Assembly (NCBI RefSeq): GCF_900215295.1
Contig: NZ_OCMF01000001.1
Span: 1 to 64,000, forward strand
DNA length: 64,000 bases
Source: Salinimicrobium sediminis
GTDB taxonomy: Bacteria; Bacteroidota; Bacteroidia; Flavobacteriales; Flavobacteriaceae
Direction: 5' to 3'
The notes below the pieces were generated by a model. The model did no database searches and was not told the origin of the DNA. It worked only from the letters and a program-made list of their open reading frames with translations. The position numbers were made by a program, and so were the translations under genes. Shown here one piece after another: positions 12,696 to 49,369 of this stretch. Each line of letters starts with the position of its first letter. Position 1 is the first letter of the stretch.

Positions 12696-12771
12696 AGAAG
12701 ATTTTAATGGGCGCAAAGATAGCTATTTTTAGTGGTCAGAGGCCAATGGTCAGTGATCAGAAATTTTTTCG

Positions 12772-13246
12772 ATGTCAGGTCGAGCGGAGTCGAGACCTTG
12801 GTATTAAATTACAAGCACCAAATTCCAAAAATAAATATCCCGACACGGATTGCAAATCCGCGCCACCATCAGCGAAGATCTCTGTAATCAGCGGGAAATA
12901 GTTAAGCACTAAATCCAAAACACACATAATTTCAAAAGCTTTTTCAATGTCAGGTCGAGCGGAGTCGAGACCTTTGTATTAAATTACAAGCACCAAATTC
13001 CAAAAAGAAATATCCCGGCACGGATTGCAAGTCCGCGCCATCATCAGCGAAGATCTGCGTAATCAGCGGGAAATAGTTAAGCACTAAATCCAAAACACAC
13101 GTAATTTCAAAAGCTTTTTCAATGTCAGGTCGAGCGGAGTCGAGACCTTTGTATTAAATTACAAGCAACAAATTCCAAAAAGAAATATCTCGGCACGGAT
13201 TGCAAATCCGCGCCATCAACAGCGAAGATCTGTGTAATCATCGGGA
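12772..13246. repeat. 175-bp tandem repeat, about 2.7 copies
   Basis: Copies begin at 12772, 12947 and 13122, each with ATGTCAGGTCGAGCGG, an exact 175-bp period; the third is cut after about 125 bp. The copies differ at only a handful of positions. Each holds the imperfect palindrome AGGTCGAG...GAGACCT, a CACGGATTGCAAATCCGCGC palindrome and the phrase ATCAGCGAAGATCTG. No open frame is conserved across copies. This explains most of the otherwise gene-free 12717-13414. Confidence 0.95.
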
Positions 13247-13414
13247 AAAAATAGTACTTCCCGAGTCCAATTACCTCTCTAACAAATTAATCATTCTCCA
13301 ATAACTAATCTCCAACTTTCCCACTGTTAACAGCTTTTGATAAGAATTGGGGCTGGTTGATTTCCAAAGCTTTTATAAAATAGTATTTTTGCAACACATT
13401 TAATCAAAACCCAG

Positions 13415-14260: not shown

Positions 14261-14370
14261 CCCCACCCTTCCTCTCCGAAGGGGAGGAGTTGAATCGAGA
14301 AAAAATGAAAATTATTACTAATTAAAAATATACCCGAACTCCCCTCCTTTGGAGGGAACGGGGGAGGCTT
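14261..14370. repeat. Inverted pair of GC-rich palindromes (MITE-like) between transketolase genes
   Basis: The whole 110-bp spacer is an inverted pair: left arm 14261-14291 (reverse complement begins AACTCCTCCCCTTCGGAG) and right arm 14337-14370 (AACTCCCCTCCTTTGGAG), around about 45 bp of AT-rich DNA. Each arm is itself an imperfect palindrome. The arms match the repeats that bracket the DUF559 gene at 45421-45983. The element starts right after the TAG and ends right before the next ATG, so it forms the whole leader of the second subunit gene. Confidence 0.8.
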
Positions 14371-45386: not shown

Positions 45387-45875
45387 ATGGCCGGTAAGAA
45401 CTACAAAGCATCATTTGAACAGTCCCCTCCCTCGGAGGGGTGGCCGCAGGCCGGGGTGGGTAAGCCTCCAATTCTCACTATCATAGATTCCACACCAATT
45501 AAACGAAGACAAATTTCTTACCTGGAAGTAAATAAAAATTTGAGAAACCGAGCAAGATCCTTACGTAAAATGGGTAATAAGCCCGAAATAGTATTTTGGC
45601 AACAGGTTCATAAAGGAAAATTTTACAACATTGATTTTGACAGGCAGAGAGTAATTGGAAATTATATAGTTGATTTTTATATAAAAGGCCTTGGTTTGAT
45701 TATAGAAATTAACGGCTCCAGTCACAACGAGAAGGTAGAGTATGATGAGCGACGTGAGAAATATTTCAAAGATCTGGGACTTCAGGTTTGGAAAACCACT
45801 TCTTCTGAAGTCATGATGGATGTTGAACAGGTGTTGGAGAATTTGAAAACTTTTATTTTAAAAAACTGTTCCTGA
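45387..45875 (+). CDS. DUF559 endonuclease-like protein with repeat-encoded N-terminus
   Basis: 162 residues; from about 45 on it is a DUF559 domain (RNRARSLRKMGNKPEIVFWQQV, FDRQRVIGNYIVDFYIKGLGLIIEINGSSH, LGLQVWKTTSSEVM), related to the Vsr and restriction-endonuclease fold, with the likely catalytic Asp in IVDFY and Glu in IIEING. Residues 13-28 (SPPSEGWPQAGVGKPP) are translated from a GC-rich palindrome at 45421-45465. An inverted copy of that palindrome follows the stop by 58 bp. No methylase or partner gene is adjacent. It may be a mobile-element or repeat-associated nuclease; that is inference. Confidence 0.82.
   Translation: MAGKNYKASFEQSPPSEGWPQAGVGKPPILTIIDSTPIKRRQISYLEVNKNLRNRARSLRKMGNKPEIVFWQQVHKGKFYNIDFDRQRVIGNYIVDFYIKGLGLIIEINGSSHNEKVEYDERREKYFKDLGLQVWKTTSSEVMMDVEQVLENLKTFILKNCS
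45421..45465 (+). repeat. GC-rich palindrome, left copy inside DUF559 gene
   Basis: CCCCTCCCTCGGAGGGG core followed by CCGGGGTGGG and AAGCC. Same family as 14261-14370, 45934-45983, 49062-49087 and 49161-49191. Confidence 0.75.
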
Positions 45876-45933
45876 CATGGTTGCTCAGCCAACAAACTCT
45901 CTTACAATAGTGAAAATACAGGATAAGGAAATT

Positions 45934-45983
45934 GGCTTCCCATCCCACCCCGCCCCCTGGGCACCCCTCCGGAGGAGGGGACG
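45934..45983 (-). repeat. GC-rich palindrome, right copy, inverted
   Basis: Reverse complement reads CGTCCCCTCCTCCGGAGGGG, then GCGGGGTGGG and finally AAGCC, matching the left copy in order and spacing. Confidence 0.75.
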
Positions 45984-48982: not shown

Positions 48983-49369
48983 TGGTTAATTGGGGATTAG
49001 TTAATTGGTTAATTGGGCTGTTGGTTATTGGTGTGGAAACAAAGTTAAAAATTCTGTTCATCCCCCCCCAACCCTCCCCAAGGGGGCTATATAAGATTTG
49101 CTTCGCCCTCGTCACGGATTGCAAATCCGCGCCATCGGAAAGGGATTCAAAATTCATCATCTCCCCCCGCCCTCTCCAAAGGAGAGGGAGCTAATCAGTC
49201 AAAAATTCTGCGAAATTCTGCGAGATCAGCGGGAAACATTTTCGGTTTTCCCCTCCCGTATTCCGAAGGATCGGGAGGTGCCGAAAAAGTTTTGGGTATT
49301 TTACACTTCTAACTTCGTACTTCTAAAATCTACCTTCTCAATACTCATTACTAACTACTCACTACTATC
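48983..49369. repeat. Gene-free repeat block
   Basis: In order: GGTTAATTGG tracts (48981-49030), a GC-rich palindrome (49062-49087), the phrase GCTTCGCCCTCGTCACGGATT with its palindrome (49111-49133) and GGGATTCAAAATTC, a second GC-rich palindrome (49161-49191), AATTCTGCGA repeats with ATCAGCGGGAAA (49200-49235), and TACTCATTACTAACTACTCA tracts (49340-49370). No gene is seen. Confidence 0.75.

Follow-up and report, generated by a model that had tools for sequence, protein, structure and literature searches.

A DUF559 endonuclease gene between inverted triplex-type repeats in Salinimicrobium sediminis, and the association of DUF559 genes with this repeat class

HuH Y1 nucleases go with GTAG REPs, and in REP/RAYT (TnpA_REP) REPtrons short palindromes lie on either side of the nuclease gene and are also scattered over other places. 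Palindromes that are inserted in frame and translated occur as Rickettsia palindromic elements and as CGTC REPs, and the latter are reported, in the part of the source used here, to be without a dedicated transposase (PMC3733652). Another dispersed repeat, the BoxC or PIT element, is the triplex motif (TM) of Holder et al. 2015 (PMC4666352), which has the pattern CCCTCNCCCN3-6GGGNGAGGGN3GGGNGAGGG and was counted 3610 times in 262 proteobacterial genomes; MG1655 holds 23 TM copies, five inverted pairs among them, and more rearrangement was seen at TM sites. In the sections of that paper drawn on here, the origin of the motif is termed unclear, transposase or integrase remnants are said never to have been found around TMECO sites, and no nuclease is linked to the motif. 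A link between DUF559 proteins and such repeats was likewise not found in the portion of the open-licence PMC literature consulted.

Here, a DUF559 gene lies between two copies of a repeat of this kind. The window, which is the whole 64-kb stretch of S. sediminis DNA that was analysed, had been described in an initial annotation as holding this gene with one palindrome in frame near its 5' end and an inverted one past its stop codon, and both were confirmed as copies A and B (Table 1). The former contributes in frame to the translated SPPSEGWPQAGVGK in the N-terminal part of the DUF559 protein. In both copies, the arms of a 7-bp hairpin (CCCCTCC-NNN-GGAGGGG) pair perfectly; after 12 nt of linker comes a third block, GGGGTGG, which mirrors the purine arm of the hairpin with A read as T, as expected for intrastrand triplexes of the purine type. 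Judged from its letters, the repeat falls into the BoxC/PIT/TM class of intrastrand-triplex motifs. As in that class, the pyrimidine block, the purine block, and the mirror third block follow in the same order (four copies in the window), and the repeats are dispersed, some of them as inverted pairs. Unlike TMECO, which has 9-nt stems and a 3-nt second loop, the window copies have stems of 6-7 nt and linkers of 4-12 nt, and they are therefore members of the class, not TMECO itself. The proposal of a new repeat-associated system holds for the association with DUF559, which generalises as described below, but not for the repeat, which belongs to a known class.

Motifs were located with a strict finder that requires a pyrimidine block of at least 6 nt, a loop of 2-8 nt, the exact complement, and a mirror block within 45 nt. 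The finder was written after one look at the later set of loci described below, and its parameters were left unchanged after the first run; its design broadly matches the published definition, with a 45-nt linker limit that is wider than the published one. Four motifs were detected in the window, whereas 20 shuffled versions from a first-order Markov model had 0.05 on average. Apart from copies A and B, these are one arm of the gene-less pair at 14261-14370 and the solo copy, both of which had been claimed before; the other arm of the pair is decayed, and the further places claimed, 49062, 55193, and 55513, show a loose likeness by eye but gave no motif with the finder. The third blocks of the gene-less pair point outward (by reading), opposite to those of the DUF559 pair. 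In the whole genome of 3.48 Mb, the hairpin CCCCTCCN2-8GGAGGGG was found in 14 copies.

Table 1. Positions of the DUF559 gene and the triplex-type repeat copies in the window
Feature	Position	Strand	Remarks
DUF559 (PF04480) endonuclease gene	45387..45875	+	162 aa; domain about 45537-45854
Copy A, intrastrand-triplex (BoxC/PIT-like) repeat	45424..45459	+	third block towards gene body; translated in frame
Copy B, inverted	45945..45980	-	past stop codon; third block towards gene
Gene-less dispersed copy, 6-bp stem	14342..14367	+	one arm of inverted pair 14261-14370
Decayed partner arm of gene-less pair	14266..14289	-	2 mismatches; missed by strict finder
Solo dispersed copy	49160..49188	-	strict finder

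The single-strand folding energies of the two copies at the gene were ordinary (z -0.97 for copy A and 0.33 for copy B). Hairpin stability was therefore rejected as the signal, which lies in the three-block architecture. No GTAG tag was present beside copy A or B (by reading), and no Rfam family reached its gathering threshold between 44000 and 47000. A second dispersed palindrome, around CACGGATTGCAAATCCGCGCC, was observed in the window at 12830-13214, 26974, 32182, 35310, 49099, and 50519, with three copies within a 175-bp tandem triplicate (12757-13281). The genome contains two DUF559 genes. At the second one (L001 / L059, genome C8 near 177862), no triplex motif was detected at a minimum stem length of 6; this gene is flanked by direct copies of another palindromic repeat, which encodes its final residues, TIPFSGSL.

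The window protein matched PF04480 with an E value of 1.9e-24 (86.1 bits; Pfam cut-off, 20.6) and has the conserved nuclease-core residues D96, E107, and H113. The domain was predicted well (mean pLDDT 85.6) and the repeat-encoded N-terminus weakly. The closest solved chain to the predicted fold was NGO0050 of Neisseria gonorrhoeae (Z 13.9), followed by the Vsr-like homing endonuclease I-Bth0305I (3r3p; Z 11.7, 2.2 Å, 94 aligned residues), a mitoribosomal protein (Z 9.3), and E. coli Vsr (1cw0; Z 9.1, 2.4 Å, 99 aligned residues, 18% identity). I-Bth0305I was also found with a profile of 18 DUF559 relatives (E 2.3e-6). The Vsr-type fold attributed to the protein was thus borne out by the predicted structure, and the catalytic domain is homologous to that of a homing endonuclease. 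The Pfam search of the window protein returned DUF559 and a sub-threshold nuclease match, and no HuH Y1 transposase. A parallel with REP/RAYT systems, which had been drawn, is apt insofar as a nuclease is flanked by its dispersed repeats; the HuH Y1 domain and the GTAG tag are absent, and a fold of the PD-(D/E)XK Vsr type and a triplex architecture stand in their place. A phage origin was rejected, as one DUF559 query (the protein of L044) matched 3 of 50,697 phage records at 1e-5.

Another explanation takes DUF559 proteins to be Vsr-like repair or methyl-directed nucleases with a housekeeping or defence function and the repeats to be transcription insulators. The PADLOC model of a methyl-directed enzyme matched the window protein weakly (0.0045) and the second DUF559 gene at 4.8e-7, and in the part of the report used here the Caulobacter DUF559 protein VsrA was required for the DNA-damage response in cells without a cytosine methyltransferase (PMC12907096). 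Because of that requirement, at least one member of the family probably acts on DNA in vivo. We nevertheless consider this explanation improbable, as it leaves unexplained the translation of repeats into protein, the in-frame inserts in MetH and LeuS, and the specificity for the triplex motif, all described below.

Next, the neighbourhoods of other DUF559 genes were analysed in four samples: the order of the window organism (40 of roughly 60 standalone matches, together with the window locus making 41 loci), named genomes (best 80 of 580 confirmed places), a plasmid collection (16 of 43 records, other phyla), and a later set from the phylum (27 fetched, 23 usable, and 4 incomplete loci left out). 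Searches of single families contributed at most 30 loci each. One locus occurs twice in the samples (L056 and L093). Phyla sampled beyond that of the window organism include Pseudomonadota, Cyanobacteriota, and Deinococcota; in Qipengyuania, for example, neighbouring copies share the architecture of the window copies. Inspection of the first DUF559 and GIY-YIG loci preceded the design of two regular expressions, G1 and C; both were final by the time the later set (L296-L346) was retrieved.

The results showed that a strict motif lay within 400 bp of the gene in 132 of 160 DUF559 loci, with motifs on both sides in 87, the best 80 of 580 places in named genomes being included in these sums. By sample, the motif was found at 29/41, 68/80 (best 80 of 580), 12/16, and 23/23 loci, and on both sides at 18/41, 44/80 (best 80 of 580), 5/16, and 20/23 loci for the order, named-genome, plasmid, and later samples, respectively. 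As controls, small ORFs from the order, named-genome, and plasmid loci had it at 27 of 553, with both sides at 5. The expectation that the palindrome would be commoner near DUF559 genes than near other genes was therefore upheld. The density of motifs was 1.67 per kb near DUF559 and 0.065 per kb elsewhere in the same 137 loci, and clustering at 80% protein identity left 114 of 142 DUF559 genes with a motif and 76 with motifs on both sides. The strict motif was absent at 28 of the 160 loci, including the second DUF559 gene of the window genome.

Consistent with the motif counts, the upstream and downstream flanks had a repeat in common at 29/41, 45/80 (best 80 of 580), and 8/16 loci of the first three samples and at 17/23 of the later set, versus 75/2401, 69/4192, and 14/959 control positions of the same geometry in the first three. 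The sums vary slightly with the anchoring (99/160 loci; 104/159 clusters), and the flank score discriminates poorly in loci crowded with repeats. An example of the latter is the gonococcal locus L222, whose DUF559 protein has the sequence of NGO0050; its flanks have a 120-bp direct repeat in common but lie in a repeat-rich stretch, where 4 of 60 control positions scored equally high.

Near the DUF559 genes, 213 distinct hairpins had an asymmetric pyrimidine-purine stem of 7. The third block, on either side, mirrored the stem of its own hairpin in 189 of the 213, whereas the mirror of a different stem fitted in 7.8% of 6868 trials; the third block therefore covaries with the stem. A direct copy of the stem was present at 49 of the 213 hairpins. 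When each hairpin was counted on both strands instead of once, the own mirror was found in 207 of 462 cases and that of another stem in 4%. Among the 87 two-sided loci, the nearest motifs formed an inverted pair whose third blocks face the gene in 55, had the opposite orientation in 19, and were direct in 13, at median distances from the DUF559 domain of 68 nt upstream and 25 nt downstream. The linker was slightly longer in the DUF559 subfamily of the window (median 25 versus 20 nt, p 0.03), a difference too small for co-evolution of gene subfamily and motif subtype to be claimed. An origin of the signal in chance or composition, with an unusual gene beside intergenic DNA of high GC content, would agree with the ordinary folding energies seen for copies A and B, but is refuted by the shuffles, the control positions, the loci fetched later, and the covariation, and its probability is negligible.

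Two other small gene families, GIY-YIG and IVP (PF05635, 23S rRNA intervening-sequence protein), were compared after incomplete loci (3 GIY-YIG of the first set, 5 of the later set, and 2 IVP), the IVP locus L293, and 4 fused GIY-YIG genes had been left out. Genes of both were also flanked by repeats, GIY-YIG at 17 of 23 loci and 15 of 19 of the later set, and IVP at 11 of 27. The strict finder detected no triplex motif within 400 bp at any of the 42 GIY-YIG or 27 IVP loci. Therefore, it is the repeat class, not repeat flanking as such, that is peculiar to DUF559, and an explanation by small genes in general was rejected, because these families are often flanked but by other repeats. The CGTC-type pattern GTCAYY[CTG]YGA was found at 12/23 and, in the later set, 11/19 GIY-YIG loci, and at 4/41, 3/73, 0/15, and, in the later set, 0/23 DUF559 loci; conversely, a cruder DUF559-type pattern (CCCCTCC or CCCTCTCC) was found at 0/23 and 2/19 GIY-YIG loci.

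Standalone GIY-YIG genes (L236-L265, L323-L346, and L388-L393) were observed between CGTC-type REP palindromes at 23 of 42 loci by this pattern, on both sides at 15. Six more plasmid records, of which five are alphaproteobacterial, were added; the flanks shared a repeat at 5 of 6 GIY-YIG genes and the pattern matched at one of 6. Alphaproteobacterial CGTC variants are GC-rich and escape the C expression, so they were judged by eye; in this way, what we take to be CGTC heads and CCA tails were readable in three others of the six, and CGTC-type palindromes were recognised in 3 of the 5 alphaproteobacterial records. GIY-YIG is thus a candidate for the dedicated nuclease of CGTC REPs. At five loci (L247, L250, L251, L253, and L260) the GIY-YIG gene presumably lies just behind a tRNA 3' end (by eye), and this apparent tRNA end and a terminator-like hairpin are repeated beyond the gene, an arrangement that looks like insertion with target duplication. 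IVP genes were observed between inverted runs of roughly 7-base repeats (L269, L273, L274, L278, L285, L291, and L295). The gap between sufB and sufC is occupied by DUF559 in Sphingomonas (L226) and by GIY-YIG in Azospirillum (L393).

The same comparison bears on the view that triplex motifs are fragile sites that catch any foreign gene, with DUF559 as a bystander. Such a view would fit the tie between motifs and rearrangement drawn by Holder et al. 2015 in the sections drawn on here (PMC4666352). It is already disfavoured, and we give it very little probability, as the motif was found at none of the 42 GIY-YIG and 27 IVP loci, which are repeat-flanked small families of the same phylum, and as small ORFs of the DUF559 loci themselves seldom have it.

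In E. coli MG1655, the DUF559 gene ycjD ends within a BoxC-like repeat (by reading), and an exact copy of the TMECO pattern, with no substitutions, follows after another 167 nt, before fabI. Given 23 copies in the genome, the chance of one within 300 bp of ycjD is p about 0.005. With a 54-nt query taken at the end of ycjD in a different strain, matches were obtained in 5353 of 5426 genomes, the median number of places being 18 in each.

DUF559 domains with flanking palindromes also occur inside large open frames in which the palindromes are translated, and 30 such loci were listed. We take their hosts to be 9 MetH, 8 LeuS (L370 by reading), 1 IleS, and 5 HsdR-type proteins, the remainder presumably including methylases, a RecB-like helicase, and PurL. 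The inserts recur at the same sites in MetH, LeuS, and HsdR; in the MetH of Raineya, for example, the DUF559 domain (785-890) lies between two B12-binding modules. Insertion at recurring sites in conserved genes is shared with I-Bth0305I, from which these inserts differ in having repeats at both ends, a frame that stays open through the insert, and no intein domain: an intein was rejected because no Hint domain was found in three in-frame host proteins (Pfam, E 0.001). The window gene itself is intergenic and does not lie inside a host gene. As with Rickettsia palindromic elements and CGTC REPs, palindromes are inserted in frame and translated, but they are of another class and have a nuclease gene between them.

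Empty sites were common for these inserts. Among 30 LeuS loci of the family, the 15-residue loop was kept in 17, 11 had 19-38 residues, and there were one clear and one degenerate DUF559 insert (by eye). Some of the 11 longer loops are clearly translated CGTC-type palindromes; five loci (L162, L166, L173, L178, and L183) have translated palindromes without a nuclease in the loop that DUF559 uses elsewhere. In MetH, 26 of 30 loci were readable, and all 26 sites were empty. The strict motif was present at 11 of 20 in-frame inserts of the order and genus, on both sides at 6, and absent from 7 of 8 of the MetH inserts in this group; in the later set, the flanks shared a repeat at 7 of 10 in-frame inserts. 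Many of the in-frame inserts are, we infer, old.

The window locus was then compared with the same place in relatives. The G608 region did not align, and the comparison covers seven aligned genomes, all of which have DUF559 elsewhere. In the interval between the same neighbours, G611 has one decayed hairpin and one strict motif with the 38-bp core of copy B in common, and G610 has two strict motifs (-, +), one of them with copy A including its start context; DUF559 is absent between these neighbours in both. One decayed copy was seen by eye at the locus in G603, and no strict motif was found there in G606, G607, G301, or G605. Gene-less versions of the locus, which had been suggested as something to look for, thus exist in the genus. 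The DUF559 locus shows presence-absence variation, which could reflect loss rather than gain.

Copy number was surveyed in 296 genomes of the order with the single 7-bp hairpin CCCCTCCN2-8GGAGGGG, and the counts include copies that flank DUF559; genomes with a match of E at most 1e-8 were taken as DUF559-positive. The hairpin was present in 52 of 70 positive genomes versus 19 of 226 others, and at least 3 copies, a threshold that discounts a flanking pair, were present in 41/70 versus 9/226. Within families, the hairpin was found in 13/23 positive versus 3/27 other genomes, 31/34 versus 8/14, and 7/10 versus 4/39; within the genus g25, the difference was not significant (20/21 versus 5/7, p 0.15). 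Three genomes without DUF559 are rich in hairpins (G103 with 16, G088 with 15, and G019 with 7), which fits loss of the nuclease but also matches what the initial annotation had named as evidence against its proposal, many repeats in genomes that lack DUF559 proteins. Copy number thus tracks the gene across the order, but the counter-evidence that was named is present in part, in these three genomes and in the non-significant trend within g25.

The strongest rival explanation is that DUF559 is a homing-like selfish gene that lands in pre-existing triplex repeats spread by something else. Homology to the homing endonuclease I-Bth0305I speaks for it, as do the repeat-rich genomes without DUF559, the relative with a solo copy that has the 38-bp core of copy B in a place where the gene is absent, and the palindromes without DUF559 in the LeuS loop. 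The complete inverted copies on both sides of the gene, their short distances and preferred orientation, and the absence of the hairpin from 207 of 226 genomes without DUF559 speak against it. Nearly all of the evidence is common to this explanation and to the spread of repeats by the nuclease, and we regard landing in pre-existing repeats as rather unlikely, though a serious contender.

On balance, we lean towards DUF559 being the dedicated nuclease of BoxC/PIT/TM-type triplex repeats, which spreads the element or its repeats through break repair. The element would consist of a repeat, the DUF559 gene, and an inverted repeat. The target of this Vsr/homing-type nuclease would most likely be the three-block motif, either folded or as duplex, with the cut made in or beside it; repair of the break would then copy the whole element, the gene with its two repeats, to new places, or it would copy the repeats alone, in which case solo copies and gene-less inverted pairs would be the non-autonomous form. 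Since translation can run through the repeats in frame, copies would persist in intergenic DNA, across the ends of genes, or inside host proteins, translated as part of loops and linkers. Counted against the spread of repeats by the nuclease were the 28 of 160 loci without a motif, the repeat-rich DUF559-negative genomes, the genus g25, the MetH inserts without a motif, the repeat flanking of GIY-YIG and IVP genes, the possibility of loss rather than gain, and the fact that no target-site duplication was established. DUF559 is nonetheless the best candidate yet for spreading these triplex repeats.

In a wider and tentative reading, which we consider possible without expecting it, REP-like repeats would be split among unrelated nucleases, HuH Y1 with GTAG REPs, DUF559 with triplex BoxC-type repeats, and GIY-YIG with CGTC REPs, and DUF559 elements would be a kind of selfish DNA whose movement involves no splicing. 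If so, this selfish DNA would include read-through inserts translated within essential genes, of which the nuclease inserts in MetH, LeuS, and HsdR are described here, with gene-less repeats as passengers. One nuclease per repeat class would make the origin of triplex repeats and the mobility of CGTC REPs testable, ycjD of E. coli K-12 included, and would assign a role to DUF559, a large protein family of unknown function.
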